64,000 bases of DNA, taken from positions 2,949,208-3,013,207 of the forward strand of contig NZ_KQ031391.1 in the NCBI RefSeq assembly GCF_000966285.1, read 5' to 3'. Positions 11,069-44,681 of the stretch are shown here, piece after piece. The notes beneath the pieces were generated by a model, which saw only the letters and a program-made list of their open reading frames with translations, was not told where the DNA came from and ran no database searches. The stretch's first letter is position 1. Every line of letters begins with the position of its first letter. Source of the stretch: Pseudofrankia sp. DC12 (GTDB taxonomy: Bacteria > Actinomycetota > Actinomycetes > Frankiales > Frankiaceae). The position numbers and the translations under genes are program-made.

Positions 11069-11920
11069 TCAAAGGCGGCAGGCCTGGATGCCGGAGACGA
11101 GGATGCCGCGGGCGCCGAGCTCCCACAGGTCGTCCATCGTGCGGTTGACGTCGTCCTTCAGGACCATCGCCCGGACGGCGACCCAGCCCTCGCGGGCCAG
11201 CGGCGAGATCGTCGGCGACTCGAAACCCGGCGTGATCTCGCAGGCCTTGTCCAGCACGGCGGTCGGCGCGTCGTAGTCCATCATCACGTACCGACGCGCG
11301 ACCAGGACGCCCTGCACGCGGCGCAGCAGCCGCTCGTGCGCCGGCGCGAGCTCCGCGCCCAGCTTTGTGATCATGATGGCCTCGGACCGCATGACCGGCT
11401 CGCCGACGAGCTCCAGGCCCGCGGCCCGCAGCGTCCGACCGGTCTCGACCACGTCAGCGACGGCATCCGCGACGCCGAGCCGCACCGCCGTCTCGACCGC
11501 GCCATCCAACGTGACGATCTGCGCGGTCAGCCCACGGGCCGCGAAGTCCGCGCGGACCAGCCCGGGAAACGAGGTGGCGATCCGCCGACCGCCCAGCTCG
11601 GCGACGTCCGAGACCGCGCCCTCCGGGGCGGCATACCGAAACGTCGAGTGCCCGTAGCCGAGGGCGACCAGTTCCCGGGCCGGAACCTCGCTGTCCAGCA
11701 GCAGGTCGCGACCGGTGATGCCGACGTCGAGGAGCCCGGAGCCGACGTAGACCGCGATGTCCCGCGGGCGTAGGAAGAAGAACTCGATGTCGTTCTCGAC
11801 GTCGGCGACGACGAGCTCGGCGCCGTCCCGCTTCACGTGGTACCCGGCGTCGCCGAGCAGCTGGCTGGAGGCGACGGAGAGCGCGCCCTTGTTCGGTACC
11901 GCGATTCGCAGCATGTCCAT
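11069..11920 (-). CDS. hisG: ATP phosphoribosyltransferase
   Basis: Catalyses the first step of histidine synthesis, joining ATP and PRPP. The 283-aa protein begins MDMLRIAVPNKGALS and contains DIAVYVGSGLLDVGITGRDLL and the family region ATSFPGLVRADFAARG. The extra C-terminal part (residues about 210-283, YVMMDYDAPTAVLDKACEIT) is the regulatory ACT-like domain of the long, self-sufficient HisG type that is inhibited by histidine. It lies downstream of hisE on the same strand, separated by about 120 bp, and is likely co-transcribed. Confidence 0.96.
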   Translation of the reverse strand: MDMLRIAVPNKGALSVASSQLLGDAGYHVKRDGAELVVADVENDIEFFFLRPRDIAVYVGSGLLDVGITGRDLLLDSEVPARELVALGYGHSTFRYAAPEGAVSDVAELGGRRIATSFPGLVRADFAARGLTAQIVTLDGAVETAVRLGVADAVADVVETGRTLRAAGLELVGEPVMRSEAIMITKLGAELAPAHERLLRRVQGVLVARRYVMMDYDAPTAVLDKACEITPGFESPTISPLAREGWVAVRAMVLKDDVNRTMDDLWELGARGILVSGIQACRL

Positions 11921-12042
11921 GTCCGTGTCATCTCAGGCCGGTGGCGGCCGCCGGTGTCATCTCACGGGGCAAGAGTGCGACGTGAACCCACGTCGCCGGA
12001 AACCCGCGCCATCCCAGGGGCAGACGACACCCGGGTGCGGGG

Positions 12043-12306
12043 TCAGAGATGGAGGTAGACGTCGTCCGGGGTGAGGCCGCGGGAGATCATCATGAGCTGG
12101 ATCCAGTAGACCAGCTGGGAGAGCTCCTCGGCGGCCCGCTCGCCCGTCTCGTACTCGGCCGCCATCCAGCTCTCGGCGGCCTCCTCGACCAGCTTCTTGC
12201 CGATGTGGTGCACGCCGGCCTCCAGCGCGGCGACGGAGCCCGAGTCCGGGGCCTTGTCCCGCCACTTCGCGGAGAGCTCCACGAACAGCTCGTCAAAGGT
12301 CTTCAC
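12043..12306 (-). CDS. hisE: Phosphoribosyl-ATP pyrophosphatase
   Basis: Hydrolyses phosphoribosyl-ATP to phosphoribosyl-AMP in the second step of histidine synthesis. The 87-aa protein is an all-alpha MazG-type fold: [35 protein letters not shown] and [14 protein letters not shown] carry the acidic metal ligands. The GTG at 12306 was chosen because it begins the conserved helix; a longer in-frame start would add an Arg-rich non-family segment. It heads the hisE-hisG unit and is divergent from the HAD gene. Confidence 0.94.
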
Positions 12307-12488
12307 GGCCGGCGACCCTCGGCAGCGGAAGCGGTGACGCCACCGCATGCGCCCAGGCTCGCGCGCGAGCAGCCGACAGACCTCATGAACCGCATGTTAC
12401 CTGGGCGGGGCCGCGGCCTCGGGCGTCCGCTGGCCGACCACGAGATGGCCATGGTGCGAACGGCCGCACGCTGGTTGACTGGGTCGCT

Positions 12489-13277
12489 GTGCCCCCTCCC
12501 GCGATCGTCGCCACCGATCTGGACGGAACCCTGATTCGGTCGGACGGCACAGTGTCGGAGCGCACCCGCCGGGCGCTGCGCCGGGTGCGTGAGCACGGCG
12601 GGACCGTTGTTTTCGTGACCGGCCGGCCAATCCGCGTAATGGCCGACGTCGTCGCGAAGACCTCGGTCGCCGGCATCGCCGTCTGCGCGAACGGCGCCCT
12701 CGTCTACGACCTGGACGCACAGACGACGGTCAACCATCGCGAGCTCGACCAGCAGGCCGCGCTGCGGCTGGCCCTGGCCATTCGGGAGATCGTGCCGGAC
12801 GTCGCGTTCGCGGTCGAGAGCGGGCTGAGGTTCGGCCGGGAGCCCGCGTTCCGCACGATGTGGCCGGACCCACTGGAGCTGGTCGCCGACCTGGCCGACC
12901 TCCTGGTGACGCTGCCGCCGATCAAGCTGCTCGTCCGCCGCAGCGGTGAGTCGCTCGCACACGTGTACGAGAAGGTCGTGGACCTCGCGGGCGCCGAGGC
13001 GGTGGTGACCCGGTCCACCGAGACACTGATCGAGATCGCCGGTGCCGGCGTCTCCAAGGCGGTCGCGCTGGCCGAGGTCGCCACCGCTCACGGGGTCACC
13101 GCGGCGGACGTCGTCGCGTTCGGCGACATGCTCAACGACCTGCCGATGCTCGCCTGGGCCGGCCATTCGGTCGCCGTCGCCAACGCGCATCCCGAGGTCC
13201 TCGCGGCCGCCGACGAGATAACCGCCTCCAACGACCACGACGGCGTAGCCCTCGTCCTCGAACGTCTCTTCGACTGA
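12489..13277 (+). CDS. HAD-superfamily phosphatase, Cof type (HAD-IIB)
   Basis: Small-molecule phosphatase of the Cof/YidA group. Motif I is D10LDGT14 (ATDLDGTLIRSDG), motif II is VVFVTGRP, and motif IV is GDMLNDLPML near residue 212, with the C2B cap between them. The N-terminal GTG follows the short gap shared with hisE. The substrate cannot be told from sequence. It ends just before the convergent XRE gene at the edge of the accessory block. Confidence 0.9.
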   Translation: MPPPAIVATDLDGTLIRSDGTVSERTRRALRRVREHGGTVVFVTGRPIRVMADVVAKTSVAGIAVCANGALVYDLDAQTTVNHRELDQQAALRLALAIREIVPDVAFAVESGLRFGREPAFRTMWPDPLELVADLADLLVTLPPIKLLVRRSGESLAHVYEKVVDLAGAEAVVTRSTETLIEIAGAGVSKAVALAEVATAHGVTAADVVAFGDMLNDLPMLAWAGHSVAVANAHPEVLAAADEITASNDHDGVALVLERLFD

Positions 13278-13302: not shown

Positions 13303-14217
13303 TCAGGGCTTGGGCCTGGCCATGTCGGCGTACCGCATCTTGTAGCGTTCGAGGACTTCTTCGAGGTCGGCGGTCGCGAGCTCGCGGTAGCTCTCGAAGA
13401 AGTGGGTGTAGAACTCGACGCTGCGCCGGTCCTGGTAGACGGTCGCGTCCAGGGACTCGGTGACGACCACATCGTCGTCGAAGATCATAAAACCGTGACT
13501 CGGCGGCAGGCCGAGCTGAGCCGTCATCGGAACCACACGCACAGTGACGTTCGACAGCTTCGCGATCTGCTCGATCCGGTCGACCTGCGCCAGCATGTAC
13601 CCCGGCGTGACATACATGTTGTTGAGCAGGTTCTCCAGCAGGATGAACTCGAACGTCTTGTTGGTGTCGTAGAGCCGCTCCTGGCGCTGGAGCCGCTGTG
13701 TCACCTTCGCCGCCGTCTCGGCCCACTTCGACTCGTGGTCACCGATGTCGACCGCATGGAACGCATTGATCACCCGACGGGTGTACTCGCTGATCTGCAT
13801 CAGGCCTGGCACAGTGATCGGCTCGAAGTCACGCACCAACGTTGCCCGACCTTCAAGATCGGCGTAATCCTGCTGGTTGACCGGGCCACGGCGCGGCAAC
13901 CGCGGACGGCTACTCAGGGACTGCAGCTCGGTCGCCTGCCCCACCAGCTCATGCAGCGCGTCCTTCGAGCCATCGAGCGCCAGCACGATCTTCTCAACGT
14001 CCAGGGGGCTCGGCCGCAGCACGCCCCGCTCGATCTTCGAGATCTTCGCCTGACTCGCGCCGATCGCCCGGCCGAGCTCCTCCCCCGTCATCCCCTTGCG
14101 CTTACGCAAACCAGCGAGAGCGCGACCGAGCTCCCCAGCCAGAGTCGAGGAGCCCGGATCCGCACCGAGCGAGGCAACGCCAAGCGACGGAACGACATCC
14201 ACCACATCGTCCGTCAC
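13303..14217 (-). CDS. XRE-family regulator with C-terminal DUF5753 domain
   Basis: A 304-aa DNA-binding protein. The N-terminal helix-turn-helix (about residues 25-85) reads LGRALAGLRKRKGMTGEELG...ASQAKISKIERG. The rest is DUF5753 (LVRDFEPITVPGLMQISEYTRRVI ... ERLYDTNKTFEFILLENLL ... VVVTESLDATVYQDRRSVEFYTHFFESY). In streptomycetes such proteins pair with small DUF397 proteins and control differentiation. Here the small neighbour upstream belongs to a different family. The GTG at 14217 has GGAGG six bases upstream. Confidence 0.88.
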   Translation of the reverse strand: MTDDVVDVVPSLGVASLGADPGSSTLAGELGRALAGLRKRKGMTGEELGRAIGASQAKISKIERGVLRPSPLDVEKIVLALDGSKDALHELVGQATELQSLSSRPRLPRRGPVNQQDYADLEGRATLVRDFEPITVPGLMQISEYTRRVINAFHAVDIGDHESKWAETAAKVTQRLQRQERLYDTNKTFEFILLENLLNNMYVTPGYMLAQVDRIEQIAKLSNVTVRVVPMTAQLGLPPSHGFMIFDDDVVVTESLDATVYQDRRSVEFYTHFFESYRELATADLEEVLERYKMRYADMARPKP

Positions 14218-14299
14218 GACGGTCCTCCGCTTCCGCGAGAACTACTACTCCGGGTCGAGTCTCAGTACACCGGATCGACGGCCCAGCTGCTCGGCCCGA

Positions 14300-14512
14300 C
14301 TACTGCCCATCCCAGTCTGGCAGACTGCGCGCCGCTCTGATGAGCAGGTCGCGAGGAATCTGCACCCGAGCCTCCCCGTCCGGCACCCCATCAACGTAGC
14401 GCTGCGTAGGCACAACATAACCCTGAACGACTACGGAACCATCAGATGCCTCGAAGACACCCGGGCAGGCCGATGTCCCGCAGCTGGTCTGGGCAAGCGG
14501 CACGAGCTCCAT
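14300..14512 (-). CDS. Small CG[ST]xxC-family protein A, probable partner of the XRE gene
   Basis: About 70 aa with the core CGTSACPGVF and VVVQGYVV and a C-terminal VQIPRDLLIRAARSL. I do not recognise a named domain. Three more relatives occur within 4 kb (at 14971, 17351 and 18062). The ATG at 14512 was chosen because the paralogue at 14971 aligns from this Met (MELVPL versus MRLTPL) and AGGAG lies just upstream. The gene is 82 bp before the XRE-DUF5753 gene on the same strand, the position DUF397 genes occupy in Streptomyces. Function unknown. Confidence 0.6.
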   Translation of the reverse strand: MELVPLAQTSCGTSACPGVFEASDGSVVVQGYVVPTQRYVDGVPDGEARVQIPRDLLIRAARSLPDWDGQ

Positions 14513-14970
14513 TGCTCCTACTTCCTCATCCGGCGCGTTCAACATCAAGTATCCGCGGCCGGCAATGACAGAGTGAATATTAGCGATCTTGGAGTGGGCA
14601 TGATCTCCCAGGCCCTGAATACTAGACCGGCCACGCCAAGTCGCCAGTCGGGGAACTCGGCCGGCGCGTCGAGCTGGAGCCGCTAAGCCGCCCATTCGGG
14701 CACCCCCTGCGCAAGAACACTCGCCTGAATCAACAATCGCGCACGCGAAGGGTGTCTACCTGGCAATTCGCGCCTGCAGGTGGTCCGCCACGGTTCCGGA
14801 TGTGGGCTCTGTTGGCCGCGTATATCGGCGGCGTGTTCGGCGATTGCGTGCTCAAATCGAGGAACACGGTCCTGTCCGCCGACGGGGCGATCCCCGGTCG
14901 GCCGGGTCGCGCGGCGCCAGCCCGGCGTTCGCCGCGGGGATCCGGGGGCACCACATGAAAGGGCGGGTAC
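14513..14970. promoter_or_regulatory. Divergent intergenic region between two small-family genes
   Basis: About 460 bp between the minus-strand gene A and the plus-strand gene B. No convincing gene is seen. It should contain both promoters; no element could be fixed with confidence. Confidence 0.3.
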
Positions 14971-15174
14971 ATGCGCCTTACACCCCTGACCGACCAGCAC
15001 TGCGGAACCAACTCGTGCCCTCAGGTCTATGCCAGCGACCACGGCACCATCGTCGTCCAGGGCACGCTCGTGACTGACGACACCGTTCAGGCGGCTCCGG
15101 GCGAGGTTCTCGTCGAGATTCCGGCGGAAATCTTTCGGGCCGCCGCGGCGGCGGTATCCGACGGGCCGGCCTGA
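14971..15174 (+). CDS. Small CG[ST]xxC-family protein B
   Basis: 67 aa: MRLTPLTDQHCGTNSCPQVY, then GTIVVQGTLV and VEIPAEIFRAAAAAV. It aligns along its full length with the protein at 14300-14512. The two Cys residues with the intervening CGTxxCP spacing could bind metal or form a disulfide, but nothing in the sequence settles this. No XRE gene directly follows it on the plus strand; the next plus-strand gene (15714) is an unrelated hypothetical. Confidence 0.6.
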   Translation: MRLTPLTDQHCGTNSCPQVYASDHGTIVVQGTLVTDDTVQAAPGEVLVEIPAEIFRAAAAAVSDGPA

Positions 15175-15713
15175 CAGGGTCAGTCTGCCGCTGTCGGCGG
15201 ACTTGCCCATCCCAGCCGGCCCGGCGACGCTGACAGACCCGCCGGCCTCGACCGGGCGGGGCCCGTCTGCCGCGCCGGAAGGCACAACGGCCAGGCCGGA
15301 CCCGCGCGGCCATCTCGACGTCACGTCGCCACCTGTCCCACCATGCCGGTCCCGTACGCCGGACTGGATCGCGGGCCCGCTCGCGAACGGGGGCCGAACC
15401 GGCGATGTCCCCTGCAAGGACTAGAGTATTCCTCTCAACCATCCACATGTAAAGATCTTGGACTATATTCTCAAGTCGCCTTGTCGGCGCTGTCCCAGTC
15501 GTTTACCGTCTGCTCATAGGTCCAGTCGACCATCGGTCACGGGCCTCGGAAGCAGGAGGTGCGTCGGAATATGCCGCACGCGGGGGGTCTCACCACTGAT
15601 TCCTGTGGAGTACCCAGGTGGGGTATGGCCACCTCGGCCATCGCAGCCCACCCCACGGCCGGGGGCGCCGGCCATCGCCTGAATGGCACGAAGATCCAGC
15701 TGGACGTGATCGC
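15175..15713. other. Intergenic, nothing recognised
   Basis: About 540 bp between small gene B and the hypothetical gene at 15714. Local AT-richer patches (about 15420-15480) may hold a promoter. Short open frames have no family resemblance. Confidence 0.3.
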
Positions 15714-16286
15714 ATGTCAATGCTGACCGCTTACGCGACTCTCACCGGCACCAACCGCGAGCAGCTGCACAGCCGGCTGTCCTGGCTCGCCCGCCAGTAC
15801 CTGCGCTACACGGTCACGAAGCCCGGCCGGCCGGCCCGCCTGGACGCCTTCTCGGACGAGGCCCGATCGGTCGCGGATGCCTTGGGCGCCGCGGCCCGCA
15901 TCATGGCCGAACGCGACCAGGCGGCCTCGCGGACCGCGCTGGTCCTCGCCGTCCGGCGTGCGGAGGACAGCTGGCAGAAGGTGCAGGTCGACCTTCACCG
16001 AGCGGGAACCACCTGGGCGGACCTGCGGGTACGCCCCGGCTACCGGCGCGAGTATCCGGTACATGTCACCAGCGGCGAGCGGCCCCAGCGCCTCACCCTC
16101 GTTCACGACAGCCGGACCGTCGAGGCCGCCCGCCTCGCCGAGGCCCGCCTCGCGCAGGCCCGCGCCGCCGCGGGCCGAGCGACCGAGCCGCCCATCACAG
16201 GCCGGAGCGGAAGCGACAGCCGCATAGCCGAAAAGGTCACGGCCGGCCCGGCGGGGCCGCGCCGAGAGCTCACCCGGCAACGGTAA
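15714..16286 (+). CDS. Hypothetical protein, about 190 aa
   Basis: Predicted soluble, mostly helical protein. The core reads HSRLSWLARQYLRYTVTKPG, then SVADALGAAARIM and AVRRAEDSWQKVQVDLHRAG. The segment around RRAEDSWQKVQVDL resembles REAERRWTQVKLRL in the membrane protein at 18894-19640, so the two may be distant relatives. The C-terminus is Ala/Arg-rich. Start chosen at ATG 15714 (a second ATG follows at 15720). No known domain; it may belong to the accessory regulator block. Confidence 0.55.
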   Translation: MSMLTAYATLTGTNREQLHSRLSWLARQYLRYTVTKPGRPARLDAFSDEARSVADALGAAARIMAERDQAASRTALVLAVRRAEDSWQKVQVDLHRAGTTWADLRVRPGYRREYPVHVTSGERPQRLTLVHDSRTVEAARLAEARLAQARAAAGRATEPPITGRSGSDSRIAEKVTAGPAGPRRELTRQR

Positions 16287-16336
16287 GCGGACCACCTGGC
16301 CCGACCGCCGACGGAGCCGGCCGGGCCAGGTGCCGC

Positions 16337-17281
16337 TCAGGCGTCCGGCAGGTCGGGCGCGGAACTGATCGCTTCTCCGAGCAGCTCGGCCTTGTAGCGC
16401 TTCAAGATTGGTAAGACGTCGTCGGTGCCGAGCTTCCAGAACTGGTCGAACGCGCGGATACCGACGTCGATCTTCTTGCGCTCCCGGTCTCGACGGCCAC
16501 CACCGAGCGTCGACTCGGTGAGAACGACCGAGTCGTCGACGATCGTGAACGCCTCGACCGGCGGGCAGCTCAGAATCGCCGCTTCGGGCAATATCCTGAT
16601 CGACACGTTCGGCAGGTCGACGGCGGCCTCGATCCGCTGGATCTGATTGGCCATCAGTATCGGCCAGTCGTCCTCGCCGAAGCGGAACCTCATTACCTGT
16701 TCCATGATGACGAACTCGTACGTCACCGCGGTGTCGTAGAGCCGCTCCTGGCGGGCAGCTCGCACCCTGAGGACCGCGGCCGTGCTTGGCCAGGTCCGGT
16801 CGTCGTCGCCGTATTCCACCGAATGGAAGCCGTTCAAGATACGCCGGGCGTACTCACTGGTCTGCAAAAGCCCCGGGACCACGATCGGTTCAAAGTTGCG
16901 GATGCGGCTGGCCCTGATCTCCTCCCCCATCCAGTCCTCCGGCCTGATTTCCTCCTTCGGGCTGGGCGCCGAACTGACGAGTCGCTTCGCGCTACGCGCG
17001 CGGTTGGCCTCGAGCTTGTCGTGCCGCGCCTGCTCGACGAGCAGGTTGGCCACCTCTCCCGGAAGCTGGAGCGCGCTTGTGATCTTGCTGATCGCGTCGG
17101 GGGATGGCGTGATCTGGAGATTCTCGATCTTGGAAATCTGGCCCTGGCTGACACCGGACTCTCGCGCCAACGCCGAGGTGGTCAGGTCACGTTCCTGGCG
17201 AAGCCGAAAAAGCAGGCGCCCGAGCGGCTCGTCCAGCTCAAGGGATGGCTCGCGGGCCGAATGCTGCTCACCGGCCGTCAT
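16337..17281 (-). CDS. XRE-family regulator with C-terminal DUF5753 domain (second copy)
   Basis: About 314 aa. The HTH is at about residues 15-75 (LGRLLFRLRQERDLTTSALA...VSQGQISKIEN). DUF5753 follows, with RNFEPIVVPGLLQTSEYARRIL, QERLYDTAVTYEFVIMEQV and VVLTESTLGGGRRDRERKKID. It is clearly paralogous to the protein at 13303-14217. The ATG at 17281 was chosen over an upstream start because GGGAGGAACG directly precedes it. A small CG[ST]xxC-family gene lies 69 bp upstream on the same strand, repeating the small-gene-then-XRE order. Confidence 0.88.
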   Translation of the reverse strand: MTAGEQHSAREPSLELDEPLGRLLFRLRQERDLTTSALARESGVSQGQISKIENLQITPSPDAISKITSALQLPGEVANLLVEQARHDKLEANRARSAKRLVSSAPSPKEEIRPEDWMGEEIRASRIRNFEPIVVPGLLQTSEYARRILNGFHSVEYGDDDRTWPSTAAVLRVRAARQERLYDTAVTYEFVIMEQVMRFRFGEDDWPILMANQIQRIEAAVDLPNVSIRILPEAAILSCPPVEAFTIVDDSVVLTESTLGGGRRDRERKKIDVGIRAFDQFWKLGTDDVLPILKRYKAELLGEAISSAPDLPDA

Positions 17282-17350
17282 CGTTCCTCCCTGTAGACGG
17301 TGTCTCTCGGGTCCGGCCGCCACGCAAAGCTCAGCGCGGCGGCCGGCAGA

Positions 17351-17590
17351 TCAGCCCTCGTTCAGGAGCTTGCGGACCGCCTCAAGCAACGTCTCCCGAG
17401 GGAGAACGACCATCTGCTCCCCAGTCGGCAGGCTCTGGGCCAAGTGGGGACCGGCTATCCACCCCTGCACGACCAGATCGTCGCTGTGCCCCGCGGGGGC
17501 GTATACGGCCGGACAGTGCGCGGAGCCGCACTGATAGGTCGCCAGCGGGGTCAGCTCCAGGGAAGTCGACTCCGAGGGAGTCAGCCGCAT
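17351..17590 (-). CDS. Small CG[ST]xxC-family protein C, upstream of the second XRE gene
   Basis: 79 aa: ELTPLATYQCGSAHCPAVYA, then DDLVVQGWIAG and VVLPRETLLEAVRKLL. It matches the proteins at 14300 and 14971 in the CG[ST]xxCPxVY core, the VVQG segment and the C-terminal [IL]P-plus-helix part. The N-terminus is about 12 residues longer. GAGGA lies upstream of the ATG. It precedes the XRE-DUF5753 gene by 69 bp. Confidence 0.62.
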   Translation of the reverse strand: MRLTPSESTSLELTPLATYQCGSAHCPAVYAPAGHSDDLVVQGWIAGPHLAQSLPTGEQMVVLPRETLLEAVRKLLNEG

Positions 17591-18061
17591 TGCCGTCCTC
17601 GTCTCCCGGCTCCCGGAAGCTACACCCCGAGACGCCGATTAGCAAATATGTTGGAATATTACGTCACGGACCCCGCCAGCAATCATGATCAAGGGATGCG
17701 GGCGCGCCGCGGGGCTCCGACCGCGCCGAGCCCATGCGGTCACCGCAGGAGACGCGCCCCTGAGTGTGACTGCACGGATGCTACGCACCAAGTCGTTGGA
17801 CGACGCGACGAGGCCTCCGGCGGACAACGATTCCAGCCGGAACGTTCAGAGACGACGACCGCCGAGCGGCCTCGGCGGCACGCGGCCAGGGCCTTCCGAG
17901 ATCAAAGATCACTTCGGCTGGCAAACCGGCGCCGGCGGGGGCAACGTTGGGGCCGCGTCACGATACGGCGTGGAATACGTGGCAAAACGGCCGTCGGCCG
18001 CAGTCCTTGCCCTGAAGTTCGATAGATGTCGGAACTGGCCGGCAGGCCGGCGGGTACTTCG
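17591..18061. other. Intergenic, nothing recognised
   Basis: About 470 bp between two minus-strand small-family genes. It contains an AT-richer patch at 17640-17660 next to the start of gene C that could be its promoter. No credible gene. Confidence 0.3.
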
Positions 18062-18454
18062 TCAGCGAAGCCCAGTCGCGGCCAAGGCGCGCACCACGAC
18101 GGCTTCAACTCGCCGGACGACGATCAACTGTTCGTGTGGCGCCACGCCGATCGTAGGCGGGGCATCGGCACGAGGCTCGCCAGCGACGCATACGCCATTG
18201 ACGGTGACCCAGGCGGGAAGCAGATCTCCGGACGCAAGACCAGGGCGATCGCATTCCGCGGCGAGCCGAAGAGCGTTCGCGGCCTTCGCATACACCGGCA
18301 GCGCGACCTCGACCACCGCCCAGGCCCGGGCGTCTCCACGGGCCGGGGTTACCGACTTCCGGTCGCCGACGACGAGGAGGTCCCCCGACTCGGGATCAAC
18401 CCAGACCCCGTGACACTGGGAGGACCCACACGCCGCCTTGGCCAGTACGAGCAT
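18062..18454 (-). CDS. Divergent CG[ST]xxC-family protein D with C-terminal extension
   Basis: About 130 aa. The N-terminal part MLVLAKAACGSSQCHGVWV, LLVVGDRKS and VEVALPVYAKAANALRLAAE parallels the other three small proteins, but the Pro after the second Cys is His-Gly here. A C-terminal extension of about 50 residues has no recognised domain. The start at 18454 was chosen by alignment. The frame stays open upstream to 18739, so a longer protein is possible. No XRE gene adjoins it. Confidence 0.45.
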   Translation of the reverse strand: MLVLAKAACGSSQCHGVWVDPESGDLLVVGDRKSVTPARGDARAWAVVEVALPVYAKAANALRLAAECDRPGLASGDLLPAWVTVNGVCVAGEPRADAPPTIGVAPHEQLIVVRRVEAVVVRALAATGLR

Positions 18455-18893: not shown

Positions 18894-19640
18894 ATGCCCG
18901 GCCACGGACCCGTCGGGCGTGCGAAATCCGAAGTGCCACTGCGGTTGGGGGGATACTACGTGCCTGATGTGACCTTGCTAGGCCTCGGATCCGGAGTGTC
19001 AGCGAATGAACTGGCTGAAGCCGGACTCGGCCTGACCGCCGTGGCGATCTGTGCCAGAAAGTCCAGAATTGCACTATTCGCAATTATTCCGACCGTGCTG
19101 GCCGCGGGCGGGAGCCGTCATCCGGCCTGGTCCGGCTGGCTTTTCGGAACCGCGGTGCTGACGGCGGCCGGACTGATCGGCGTGCTCCTCGTCACCGCCT
19201 ACGTCCGGGCCCGCCGCGAGGATTTCGTCCTCGGCTACACCGGCGACGAGCCGGCCTGGGCCCAGCCCGACGAGTCCTTCCTTCCATACCCAGACGAACC
19301 CGCTGCGGGCCCACGTCGGCATCCCGACTGCGGCGATCCGGTCGATCCGAACTCGGTCCGGATGAACGTCCTCGCGTACGACTTCCTGTCCCATGTCTGC
19401 CAGCGGGACGACGGCCCTGCCCTGGTCGATATCCACGAGCCCATGACCCAGAGGTTCCTGACCGCGTTCACCGACGCCACCGGCCTGTTCCTCACGGAGG
19501 GATCGCGGGACCCTCGGCTGTTGTCGACCACCATTCGGGAGGCCGAACGTCGTTGGACACAGGTCAAGCTCCGGCTCGGCCGCTGCTCCCGCGACGAGGG
19601 CCAGTACGGCAGCGATGCCTGCGGCCCCGACGGTCAGTAA
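18894..19640 (+). CDS. Hypothetical membrane protein
   Basis: About 248 aa; the exact start is uncertain (an ATG at 18894, other starts downstream). Two hydrophobic segments are visible, IALFAIIPTVLAAGG and WLFGTAVLTAAGLIGVLLVTAYV, followed by a soluble domain. The C-terminal FLTAFTDATGLF...REAERRWTQVKLRL is distantly similar to the protein at 15714-16286. Function unknown. It is the last gene of the accessory block before tldD. Confidence 0.55.
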   Translation: MPGHGPVGRAKSEVPLRLGGYYVPDVTLLGLGSGVSANELAEAGLGLTAVAICARKSRIALFAIIPTVLAAGGSRHPAWSGWLFGTAVLTAAGLIGVLLVTAYVRARREDFVLGYTGDEPAWAQPDESFLPYPDEPAAGPRRHPDCGDPVDPNSVRMNVLAYDFLSHVCQRDDGPALVDIHEPMTQRFLTAFTDATGLFLTEGSRDPRLLSTTIREAERRWTQVKLRLGRCSRDEGQYGSDACGPDGQ

Positions 19641-19916: not shown

Positions 19917-21482
19917 ATGCCGACAGCCGATTCCGCCGCTGCGCCCAGGACGCCGCCGCAAGAGGTCGATCCCGAGTTCCTCGCGTTGCCGCGGGCGGCT
20001 CTGACGGACGCGGCGCTGCAGACGGCCCGCGATCTCGGCGCCAGTCACACGGACATCCGGATCGAGCGGCTGCGAGACGGCTCGCTGTCGTTCCGGGACG
20101 GAAGCCTCGAGACGAGTCATGACGGCTCGACCGTCGGCTTCGCCGTGAGGGTCGTGCACGAGGGCACCTGGGGGTTCGCGGCCGGCGTCGACCTGACCAC
20201 CGACGAGGCCGTCCGGGTCACCAGGGAGGCCGTCGAGATCGCGCGGGTGGCTCGCCCGTTGAACACCGAGCCGATCGAGCTCGCCGACGAGCCGGTGCAC
20301 GCCGACGCCACCTGGGTGTCGGCGTACGCGGTGAACCCGTTCGCCATCGACACCCGCGAGAAGGTCGACCGGGTCGGCGGCCTGTGCCGGACGCTGCTGT
20401 CCGCGGCCGACGTCGACCACGTCGACGGCCAGCTCAGCGAGGTCCTGGAGAACAAGTACTACGCGGACCTGAGCGGTACCTCGACCACTCAGCAGCGGGT
20501 GCGCCTGCTCTGCCAGATCGAGGCGACCCGGGTCGACCCGGGTGGCGGCTTCGAGACGATGCGCACGATCGCGCCGCCGGCCGGCCGCGGCTGGGAGTGG
20601 CTGGTCGCGGGCCCGGCGGCCGGCTGCTGGGACTGGGACGCCGAGATAGAGACGATTCCGGGCCTGCTCGCCGAGAAGGCGAAGGCGTCGTCAGTCGAGC
20701 CGGGGCGCTACGACCTGGTCATCGACCCATCCAACCTGTGGCTGACGATTCACGAGTCGGTCGGCCATGCGACCGAACTGGACCGGGCGCTCGGCTACGA
20801 GGCCGCCTACGCCGGCACCTCGTTCGCGACCATTGACCAGCTCGGCACCCTGCGCTACGGCTCGCCGCTGATGAACGTCACCGGCGACCGGACCGCGCCC
20901 CATGGGCTGGCCACGATCGGGTACGACGACGAGGGCGTCGCCGCCGGCCGATGGGACATCGTCCGCGCGGGCACGCTCGTCGGCTACCAGCTCGACCGCC
21001 GGATGGCGGCGGCGAACGCCGAGCGCCTCGGCGTCACCCGCTCGAACGGCTGCGCGTTCGCCGACTCCGCCGGGCACGTGCCGATCCAGCGGATGGCCAA
21101 CATCTCGCTGCGGCCTACGCCCGGCGGGCCGTCCACCGAGGACCTGATCTCCGGGGTCGACCGCGGCATCTACATCGTCGGGGACAAGAGCTGGTCCATC
21201 GACATGCAGCGGTACAACTTCCAGTTCACCGGCCAGCGGTTCTACGAGATCCGCAAGGGCCGGATCGTCGGCCAGCTGCGTGACGTCGCCTACCAGGCCA
21301 CGACGACCGATTTCTGGGGCGCACTCGACGGGCTCGGCGGTGAGCAGACCTACCTGCTCGGCGGCGCGATGAACTGCGGCAAGGGCCAACCCGGCCAGGT
21401 CGCCGCCGTCAGCCACGGCGCTCCGTCGACGCTGTTCCGCGGGATCAGCATCCTCAACACGCGGCACGAAGCGGGCCGGTAG
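19917..21482 (+). CDS. tldD: Metalloprotease TldD
   Basis: Catalytic subunit of the TldD/TldE zinc protease, which degrades unfolded or modified peptides and matures some microcins and RiPPs. The 521-aa protein has the family HExxxH motif (HESVGHATELDRALGYE) and the downstream AYAGTSFAT and NGCAFADSAGHVPIQRMAN segments. C-terminal residues (GGAMNCGKGQPGQ) carry the expected third zinc ligand region. The start has AGGA upstream. The partner tldE follows after 85 bp on the same strand. Confidence 0.93.
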   Translation: MPTADSAAAPRTPPQEVDPEFLALPRAALTDAALQTARDLGASHTDIRIERLRDGSLSFRDGSLETSHDGSTVGFAVRVVHEGTWGFAAGVDLTTDEAVRVTREAVEIARVARPLNTEPIELADEPVHADATWVSAYAVNPFAIDTREKVDRVGGLCRTLLSAADVDHVDGQLSEVLENKYYADLSGTSTTQQRVRLLCQIEATRVDPGGGFETMRTIAPPAGRGWEWLVAGPAAGCWDWDAEIETIPGLLAEKAKASSVEPGRYDLVIDPSNLWLTIHESVGHATELDRALGYEAAYAGTSFATIDQLGTLRYGSPLMNVTGDRTAPHGLATIGYDDEGVAAGRWDIVRAGTLVGYQLDRRMAAANAERLGVTRSNGCAFADSAGHVPIQRMANISLRPTPGGPSTEDLISGVDRGIYIVGDKSWSIDMQRYNFQFTGQRFYEIRKGRIVGQLRDVAYQATTTDFWGALDGLGGEQTYLLGGAMNCGKGQPGQVAAVSHGAPSTLFRGISILNTRHEAGR

Positions 21483-42161: not shown

Positions 42162-44681
42162 ATGGGGACGGGTCTGACCGACAGGCAGATCGCTGCGCTT
42201 GCTGAGGTGTTTGCCGATCCGCTGTCGGCGCGGCAGGTGGTGCGGGAGGCCGGGATCGCCGTGGCAGATGTGCCGTGGAGTCCTGAGAGTCCGCGGGTGT
42301 TCTGGACGGCGGTCTCGGGGCTGCTCGCGCACGGTATCGCCGTTGGTGGCGTGGCGCGGTTGCTGGCGGTCGCTCGTCAGCGGTTTCCGGGTAATCCGGG
42401 TCTTGCTGCGGGGTCTGATGAGTTGCCGGCGGGTGGCTCGACCGGCGGGGTGGTGTGGGAGGTGAGCTGGCCACGAAATCCGCTGTTCACCGGCCGGGAG
42501 GAGGAATTGGCTGCGCTGCGGGAGCGGCTGGTGGGGTCGGGTTCGGCCGCCGTGCTGCCAGTGGCGCTGCACGGCCTGGGTGGGGTTGGGAAGACCCAGT
42601 TGGCTGTCGAGTACTGCTACCGGTTTGGCGCAGAGTACGAATTGGTGTGGTGGGTGCCCGCGGAGGAGCCAGCGTCGGCGTTGGCTGCCCTGAGCCGGCT
42701 TGCGGAGCGGGTCGGGATTGGGGCGGCTGGGTCCGCTGAGGAGTCGGTCCGAGCACTCGTGGCATCGTTGGCGTCGGGTGGTGCGTTCTCTCGCTGGTTG
42801 CTGGTCCTGGACAACGTGGGGGCGCCGGCGGACCTGTTTGGGGTGCTGCGGGCGGCCGCGGGGTCGGGCGGGCATGTTCTGGTGACGTCGCGCGATCACC
42901 GCTGGTCGGGGCTGGCTCGTACGGTCGCGGTCGACGTGTTGCCGTCGGTGGATGCAGTGGCGTTGTTGCGCTCGCACGTTGAGCAGATCGGTGACGAGGA
43001 CGCGGGTCGGATCGTTGCGGCGCTTGGGAATCTGCCGCTGGCGGTAGAGCAGGCGGGGGCCTTCTTGGCGGCCACTTCAATGGCGTCGGGTGAGTACGCG
43101 GGTCTCCTGGCGACCGAGCTTCGGCGGCTGATGGTCCGGGGCGCGCCAGGCGGCATACGCCCGGTCGCCGCGACGTGGACAGTGATCCTCCACGAGCTAG
43201 GCGACCCGGCTGTGGTGATGCTGGCTCGGCTGCTGGCCCAGTTTGGTCCTGAGCCGATACCACTGGACCTGGTCGGGCCGCACGTAGCTGGGATGCTGCC
43301 AGCCCCGCTGGATGACGTGGCAGCAGATCGGATCGCGTGGGCGGACACCGTCGGTCGGGTGTTGGCGTTGGCGTTGGTGGGTCGAACCGAGGCACCGGGG
43401 GCCGTGGTGATGCATCGGCTGGTCGCGCGAGTACTGCGGGATGACACGCCCGTCGAGTTGCAGCCGCTGTTGCGTACGGTGTCGCGTCGGCTCGTCGCTC
43501 GTGGGCATCCACAGGTGCGTGACCAGCCGGAGGCGTGGCCCCGATACGCCCTGCTGCACGCCCATGCGTTGGCCGTCGGGCTGGTGGAAGACAACGACGC
43601 GGACAGCCACGACATGATCACCTGGCTTGTCCGGTACCTGCGAGACCGTGGCGACTACCCGAGCAGCCGCGCGCTAGGCGAGCGCGCCCTAGCTCGGAGC
43701 CAGGTAGTCCTCGGCGAAGATCACCTGTCCACAATCGCTGCGACGCATGAACTCGCGCGTGTCGTGCGGGATCAGGGCGACTACGCCACCGCGCGAACGA
43801 TGTTCGAGGACGTCCTGGCCCGACGCCGCCGAATTCTCGGCGAGGATCACCCAGAAACGATCGCTGCTGCCCATGCGGTCGGCTTCGTTGTGCGGGATCA
43901 AGGTGACTATGCGACGGCACGGACGATGTTCGAGGACGTGCTGACCCGGTCTCGACGGACTCTCGGCGAAGATCACCTGTCCACAGTTGCTACCGAGCAT
44001 GAACTCGCCCGCGTCGTGCGGGATCAGGGTGACTACGCCACCGCGCGGACGATGTTCGAGGACATCCTTACCCGACGCCGCCGAATTCTTGGCGAGGATC
44101 ACTTGTCTACGATCGCTGCCGCGCATGCAGTCGGGTTTGTAGTGCGGGATCAGGGAGATTACGCCACCGCACGAACGATGTTCGAGGACGTGCTGACCCG
44201 GTCCGGTCGGATTCTTGGCGAAGATCACCCGTCAACGATCGCCGCTGCGCACGAACTCGCAGGCGTCGTGTGGGAACAGTGCGACTATGCCACAGCGCGG
44301 ACGATGTTCGAGGATGTGCTGACCCGGTCCCGTCGTCTTCTCGGCGCGGCCCACCCGGATACGATCTCCGCGGCGCAGAACCTTGCAGGAGTCGTGCGAG
44401 ATCAGGGTGACTACGGCACGGCGCGGACGATGCTCGAGGACGTGCTGACCCAACGCGCCCGGATTCTCGGCGAGGATCACCCGGACACGATTTCCGCCGC
44501 GTACGACCTCGCGGGAGTCATGCGGGATCAAGGTGACTACGCGACGGCGCGGACGATGTTCAAGGACGTCCTGAATCGCTACAGCCGGTCGCTCGGCGAG
44601 CAGCATCCAGACGCCCTTGCGGCCCGTCGAGCGCTGGCAGACATGGAGATCGACTTGGGCAGCAGCCCATCTAGTCCGTAG
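42162..44681 (+). CDS. STAND (NB-ARC-like) NTPase with N-terminal effector-associated-like domain and C-terminal TPR array
   Basis: 839 aa. Residues 1-80 (LTDRQIAALAEVFADPLSARQVVREAG ... GVARLLAVARQRFPGN) look like the small helical effector-associated domains described for NTP-dependent conflict systems. The NTPase has Walker A G138LGGVGKT145 and Walker B LLVLD (213-217), then VLVTSRD and LGNLPLAVEQAGAF (GLPLA-type motif). Residues 494-829 are eight 42-residue TPRs of the kinesin-light-chain type, nearly identical to each other. Such proteins sense an invader or stress and switch an effector. No effector with a matching N-terminal domain is visible nearby. Conflict role is inferred from architecture. 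Confidence 0.82.
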   Translation: MGTGLTDRQIAALAEVFADPLSARQVVREAGIAVADVPWSPESPRVFWTAVSGLLAHGIAVGGVARLLAVARQRFPGNPGLAAGSDELPAGGSTGGVVWEVSWPRNPLFTGREEELAALRERLVGSGSAAVLPVALHGLGGVGKTQLAVEYCYRFGAEYELVWWVPAEEPASALAALSRLAERVGIGAAGSAEESVRALVASLASGGAFSRWLLVLDNVGAPADLFGVLRAAAGSGGHVLVTSRDHRWSGLARTVAVDVLPSVDAVALLRSHVEQIGDEDAGRIVAALGNLPLAVEQAGAFLAATSMASGEYAGLLATELRRLMVRGAPGGIRPVAATWTVILHELGDPAVVMLARLLAQFGPEPIPLDLVGPHVAGMLPAPLDDVAADRIAWADTVGRVLALALVGRTEAPGAVVMHRLVARVLRDDTPVELQPLLRTVSRRLVARGHPQVRDQPEAWPRYALLHAHALAVGLVEDNDADSHDMITWLVRYLRDRGDYPSSRALGERALARSQVVLGEDHLSTIAATHELARVVRDQGDYATARTMFEDVLARRRRILGEDHPETIAAAHAVGFVVRDQGDYATARTMFEDVLTRSRRTLGEDHLSTVATEHELARVVRDQGDYATARTMFEDILTRRRRILGEDHLSTIAAAHAVGFVVRDQGDYATARTMFEDVLTRSGRILGEDHPSTIAAAHELAGVVWEQCDYATARTMFEDVLTRSRRLLGAAHPDTISAAQNLAGVVRDQGDYGTARTMLEDVLTQRARILGEDHPDTISAAYDLAGVMRDQGDYATARTMFKDVLNRYSRSLGEQHPDALAARRALADMEIDLGSSPSSP
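43641..44648 (+). repeat. Eight tandem 126-bp TPR-coding repeats
   Basis: Exact 126-bp periodicity. Units share RDQGDYATARTMFEDVL and [RS]ILGEDHP.TI. Units 1, 3 and 5 end HELA[RG]VV while units 2 and 4 end HAVGFVV, which points to duplication of a two-unit (252-bp) block. The near identity implies recent expansion and recombination. Confidence 0.92.

Follow-up and report, generated by a model that had tools for sequence, protein, structure and literature searches.

Whether XRE-DUF5753 regulators can have a small partner protein other than DUF397 is the question raised by a gene cluster of Pseudofrankia sp. DC12. In Streptomyces, XRE-DUF5753 regulators together with their DUF397 partners control differentiation and antibiotic production. 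The stretch of 64,000 nucleotides analysed here (the window; positions 2949208-3013207 of a single 6.88 Mb contig) was found to contain two XRE-DUF5753 genes (XRE1 and XRE2) and four small genes (S1, S2, S3 and S4) of a family that is named SMALL here (about 65 residues; Table 1). S1-XRE1 and S3-XRE2 are likely to be two copies of a co-inherited, probably autoregulated regulator-partner module parallel to XRE-DUF397. The gene order, the conservation, the co-duplication, the split of the regulator clades, the SMALL-DUF6879 open frames and the recurring upstream motifs were observed; the protein binding, the direction of control, the targets and the signal are what we infer. The pairing looks like a second version of the pairing of regulator and DUF397, present in many soil actinobacteria.

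SMALL genes beside XRE-DUF5753 regulators

S1 and S3 were found directly upstream of XRE1 and XRE2 on the same strand, as had been stated in an earlier prediction made from the sequence (the original prediction), with a gap of 82 base pairs (bp) between S1 and XRE1; the gap between S3 and XRE2 depends on the start of XRE2, 27 bp with the listed GTG (17323) and 69 bp with the internal ATG (17281). S2 and S4 were not paired with an XRE gene, so that the pairing applies to two of the four small genes. Both regulators matched PF19054 (DUF5753) and an N-terminal PF13560 (HTH_31) above the cut-off, and their scores for NF058600 (the SCO1979 family) were far below the cut-off of that model. The genome contained nine DUF5753 and nine DUF397 matches. 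No DUF397 was found near XRE1 or XRE2 in the window; the seven DUF5753 genes outside it had a same-strand DUF397 directly downstream (four), a convergent DUF397 (one) or none near (two).

The four open reading frames (ORFs) of the original prediction were all present and conserved. S2, used as a single query against the whole genome, recovered S1 (E 5.0e-9) and S3 (E 9.2e-6) and did not recover S4. When S4 was left out of the profile, S4 itself was not matched in the window at 15 bits or more, but 20-39 bits were given to the S4-like ORFs of the related loci L034, L035, L036 and L038, and homologues of S4 were found by tblastn in L034, L035, L038 and L039. S4 is a family member only transitively, via these counterparts; judged by eye it looks like a two-domain version, the second copy being without the Cys. 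In L170, L275, L291, L292 and L299, too, a single open frame contained two SMALL domains in tandem.

Neighbours were counted in the window's own family of the genome set (f1, presumably Frankiaceae; 35 genomes) and in a class set of 393 genomes, for SMALL copies of at least 30 bits, a threshold that removed no copy. The loci were chosen because they hold SMALL, the best matches first, not all class matches being fetched, and 40 further, mostly weaker loci (11 of them f1) offset this selection bias in part. The labels DUF397, DUF6879 and XRE were assigned with profiles built in this analysis; in the window's genome these found 9/9 DUF5753 genes and 8/9 of the DUF397 places given by Pfam.

All 20 fetched f1 loci contained SMALL directly upstream, on the same strand, of an XRE-DUF5753 gene, and 26 of the 43 f1 copies were directly upstream of such a gene. 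Outside f1, every copy in 60 better-scoring loci (67/67) was followed by a same-strand DUF6879 and/or XRE-DUF5753 gene (48 by DUF6879 then XRE, 12 by XRE directly, 7 by DUF6879 with no XRE seen), and so was every copy in 80 named loci (81/81; 60 with direct XRE, 21 with DUF6879); the two sets overlap in 11 copies, giving 137 distinct copies in all. In the 40 further loci, 39/47 copies had such a neighbour (28 DUF6879 then XRE, 10 DUF6879 only, 1 XRE); counted by locus, 34 had one (25 XRE, 9 DUF6879 only) and five had neither. Five complete f1 genomes were also covered by an open census of their DUF5753 genes: of 35, 8 had SMALL upstream, 14 a same-strand DUF397 downstream, 2 a convergent DUF397 and 11 neither partner, and none had both. 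The association of SMALL with DUF5753 genes is very strong.

When 154 non-redundant XRE-DUF5753 proteins were placed on a tree, one partner change was found to separate 106 SMALL-upstream from 33 DUF397-downstream regulators (Shimodaira-Hasegawa-like approximate likelihood ratio test, SH-aLRT, 98); the strict same-strand partner labels left 15 rows unlabelled, 11 on the DUF397 side and 4 on the SMALL side. A subset of 56 rows under a mixture model also contained one change (ultrafast bootstrap, UFBoot, 99 / SH-aLRT 97). The SMALL and XRE distances gave a Mantel r of 0.83 (146 non-redundant pairs of 195), a value reached by none of 2000 within-group permutations, and 11 of the 12 pairs of six two-module loci had their nearest SMALL and nearest XRE in the same paralogue class. 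SMALL is a conserved companion of a distinct XRE-DUF5753 clade, and the predicted association with DUF5753 genes was borne out by the neighbour counts and by the split of the tree.

Upstream motifs and distribution

The word GAATAYTAG was found twice in the window, both times upstream of S1, against 0 matches in 100 shuffles. A GAATAYTA-type word was present upstream of 8/21 f1 XRE pairs (0.11 expected) and of 0/40 XRE-DUF397 pairs. The palindromes GAATATTC and GCAATTGC, the top-enriched upstream words in two other SMALL groups, were present upstream of 14/96 (0.57 sites expected) and 31/34 (0.52 expected), respectively, and upstream of 0/40 and 1/40 XRE-DUF397 pairs. The recurring upstream palindromes are candidate operators.

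The profile of the four proteins found SMALL in 28/35 f1 genomes and, at E 1e-5, in 92/393 class genomes, of which 28 were f1; a narrower profile, run at E 1e-6 on a phylum-wide sample, found it in 12/296 genomes, of which two lie outside the class. The named hosts include Nocardiopsis, Nonomuraea, Streptosporangium, Herbidospora and Saccharopolyspora. Relatives of a Nocardiopsis-type SMALL were present in 32 plasmid records, 27 of which are from Streptomyces, and none was found in the phage collection; S1 had no relative in the plasmid collection. In the plasmid records seen, the relatives were mostly annotated as hypothetical protein, and a genomic context is now given to this family. The flanks were alike in 16/20 fetched f1 loci, with a HAD hydrolase and hisG at one end of the locus and tldD at the opposite end (names confirmed by Pfam), and this constancy points to an old chromosomal locus in f1.

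Comparison of SMALL with DUF397 and the alternative explanations

The motif with two Cys of the original prediction was retained in one half: the second Cys was kept in 85/89 non-redundant SMALL members and is, judged by sequence, the family hallmark, the first was kept in 46/89, and the term 'two-Cys' is not general. The column counts contained CPx[VLI][YF] and VVQG. No Pfam match at E 0.01 or better was found for 28 members, and further Pfam scans gave sub-threshold matches to other families only (E 0.09 or worse); no NCBIfam or PHROGs model was matched by the members scanned, and no PADLOC model by the four members scanned. In a sequence search of solved structures, the SMALL profile and one DUF397 sequence gave no match at E 0.1 and one DUF5753 regulator matched helix-turn-helix (HTH) regions only. 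No paper was found with SMALL peptide motifs in the library of papers searched. SMALL is a real and conserved family of small proteins for which the model libraries searched contain no entry.

It is somewhat unlikely that SMALL is a very diverged DUF397 and the cluster a rearranged form of the known XRE-DUF397 system. Such an origin would fit a regulator domain that is identical in kind and the AlphaFold models, which contained a similar order of secondary structure (SMALL: E3-8, E18-22, E27-30, H54-62; DUF397: E11-14, E22-28, E31-36, E45-48, H49-62) with a Cys just ahead of strand 2 in both, and the best local match by hhalign aligned CPxxY with CVEV in that register. As the predicted strand order parallels that of DUF397 less the fourth strand, the two may have a remote common origin or fold. 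The hhalign scores of 7.4 and 8.0, however, were not above the column-shuffled means of 8.7 and 8.4 (146/200 and 76/150 shuffles scored as high, and 136/150 in global mode), so that the profiles do not merge, and the absence of a Pfam match for the 28 members points the same way. The CxE of strand 2 and the RDS that follows strand 3 in DUF397 (PMC7159879) were not found in SMALL, and the gene position is opposite, DUF397 being directly downstream of XRE and SMALL upstream in the pairs counted, except for the reversed L283. The SMALL model is also weak, with three strands instead of four (predicted local distance difference test, pLDDT, 73 and predicted template modelling score, pTM, 0.46, against 78 and 0.59 for DUF397), and gave no chain of the Protein Data Bank (PDB) with Z of at least 2 among 385 ranked by Foldseek and no match at E 0.001 or better among viral structures; a pTM of 0.46 is too weak for these missing matches to make the fold new. 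The DUF397 model best matched the N-domain of KhtT (Z 5.2) and a PC4 homologue (Z 4.6), both in the middling range. SMALL is not DUF397 by the tests made here, in agreement with what its motifs had suggested.

In the wider family, a gene was often found between SMALL and the regulator, and it was DUF6879 (PF21806) by Pfam in both cases tested. Eight loci contained SMALL and DUF6879 in one open frame (two of these frames are each recorded as one Streptomyces plasmid protein) and the loci analysed contained no such frame of SMALL and XRE. DUF6879 is encoded beside SMALL, sometimes in one frame, but is absent from the SMALL-XRE pairs of this window; no paper was found by the name DUF6879 in the library of papers searched. 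Six of the nine loci with DUF6879 only were read (L263, L264, L266, L274, L278 and L293). In L263, L264, L266, L273, L274, L276, L278 and L293, SMALL, mostly with DUF6879, was seen to precede a large NTPase-like ORF and not XRE-DUF5753, and a VVQxGxxHGxxxx-like N-terminal stretch was common, by eye, to six of these ORFs. TPR alone was found by Pfam behind SMALL of L273, the fragments from L264 and L274 had no Pfam match, and that from L276 matched weak HTH models only and no NB-ARC. Away from the cluster, the window encodes an EAD1-NB-ARC-TPR protein (42162-44681).

Several observations weigh against the module of SMALL and regulator. In L263, L266, L278 and L293, the ORF that follows DUF6879 matched NB-ARC and TPR in Pfam; since some weak SMALL loci run into such NTPases, presumably of the STAND type, the regulator is not obligatory. 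Unlike the arrangement in the window, these loci were not seen to contain XRE-DUF5753. No XRE gene adjoins 17/43 f1 copies or S2 and S4; among the 40 further loci, 8/47 copies had neither downstream neighbour and 10/47 had DUF6879 without XRE, and L283 contained XRE upstream of SMALL. When a convergent DUF397 was counted as a partner, the changes on the tree rose from 1 to 3, because convergent DUF397 neighbours also occur in the SMALL clade, and four regulators of that clade have a DUF397 downstream as well. As to the motifs, GAATATTC was exact in 14/96 only, and nine of the 14 are from related Nocardiopsis-type loci and have the word at one common position, GCAATTGC came from a single closely related group, neither was found in the upstream DNA of nine f1 SMALL-DUF6879 modules, and the expected counts derive from mostly coding DNA. 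The parallel system of the original prediction is supported with the amendment that DUF6879 is often in between and that some weaker members occur with NB-ARC/TPR and no DUF5753.

That SMALL is primarily the partner of DUF6879, as sensor or adaptor, with the XRE or NTPase behind them as an exchangeable output, is unlikely. The one-frame genes, the 55/67 sampled copies that are followed by DUF6879 and the four NB-ARC/TPR loci would agree with it, but SMALL and XRE stay paired without DUF6879 between them in the window and in those f1 and Streptosporangiaceae pairs that adjoin directly (26 f1 copies and 60/81 named copies). A type II toxin-antitoxin system, with SMALL as toxin and XRE as antitoxin that also represses the operon, is very unlikely. 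A small gene and an XRE gene in one apparent operon, the multiple copies and the 32 plasmid records would be expected of it, and the same idea was published for DUF397 as toxin and XRE as antitoxin (PMC2701414). The published analogue failed, however: a Streptomyces coelicolor study (PMC10364602), in which SCO1979/1978 is an XRE/DUF397 pair, reports that 0/14 XRE/DUF397 pairs behaved as type II toxin-antitoxin systems and calls them pleiotropic regulators. The constant hisG/HAD-tldD position is unlike that of a mobile addiction module, the unpaired S2 and S4 would be unguarded toxins, and the missing PADLOC match of the four members likewise stands against it.

Proposed mode of action and features of the locus

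For the regulator-partner module, the nearest known systems are the XRE-DUF5753/DUF397 pairs (WhiJ-BldB, Scr1-Scr2), which have the same regulator family, an adjoining small partner gene, many paralogues, an actinobacterial distribution and plasmid copies. They differ in that the partner is downstream there and upstream here, the small proteins are unrelated by profile, the SMALL-type regulators form a separate clade, the upstream motifs differ and SMALL modules often contain a DUF6879 gene in between. SMALL most likely acts as a partner of the regulator in the way of DUF397/BldB, a physical partnership that we infer. Most likely it would bind the XRE-DUF5753 regulator, or a DUF6879 protein that acts on it, and the binding would alter the DNA binding or activity of the regulator. 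The binding sites of the regulator would probably be the short, AT-rich palindromes that precede SMALL, and through them it would control its own operon and further targets. The same logic was reported for WhiJ and BldB/DUF397, where the small protein is another one and the two genes stand in the reverse order. In the Streptomyces venezuelae study (PMC10294661), 129 fusions of BldB and WhiJ were counted, direct repeats at the WhiJ9 locus were bound by WhiJ9, and the data point to a BldB that does not itself bind DNA.

A second, independently recognisable partner family on a separate regulator clade is a natural comparison for DUF397, and it predicts that the DUF5753 domain would be the docking site and that the two clades would differ at the contact surface. 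A more speculative and rather unlikely extension is that SMALL and DUF6879 together act as a sensor with two alternative outputs, XRE-DUF5753 for gene control and an NB-ARC/TPR NTPase for what may be a cell-fate or defence response. If true, one sensor family would link development-type regulation with conflict-type signalling in mycelial actinobacteria.

Table 1. Features of the SMALL-XRE cluster in the window (positions of the window)
Feature	Coordinates	Strand	Remarks
S1, putative small partner of XRE1	14300..14512	(-)	70 amino acids (aa); orthologues directly 5' of XRE-DUF5753
XRE1, HTH_31 + DUF5753 regulator	13303..14217	(-)	DUF5753 E 1.5e-27; SMALL-type clade
S2, unpaired small paralogue, divergent from S1	14971..15174	(+)	67 aa; counterparts near S1 in related loci
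S3, putative small partner of XRE2	17351..17590	(-)	79 aa
XRE2, HTH_31 + DUF5753 regulator	16337..17323	(-)	DUF5753 E 6.2e-23; SMALL-type clade; possible ATG start 17281
S4, diverged relative, apparently two-domain	~18062..18454	(-)	about 130 aa; start chosen by hand
GAATATTAG	14575..14583	(+)	upstream of S1; GAATAYTAG match
GAATACTAG	14617..14625	(+)	upstream of S1; the same in all 8 rows of an intergenic alignment that is otherwise diverged
GAATATTAC	17654..17662	(+)	one-mismatch copy upstream of S3
ORF190, unnamed, conserved beside the cluster	15714..16286	(+)	190 aa; no Pfam family
ORF248, unnamed neighbour related to ORF190	18894..19640	(+)	248 aa
Cluster flanks	11069-13277 and 19917-21482		hisG + HAD hydrolase / TldD-type gene

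The cluster was also found to contain ORF190 and ORF248, which match identical stretches of related loci (e.g. L046:7133-7348) and, from these common stretches, appear to be paralogous members of another unnamed family encoded here.

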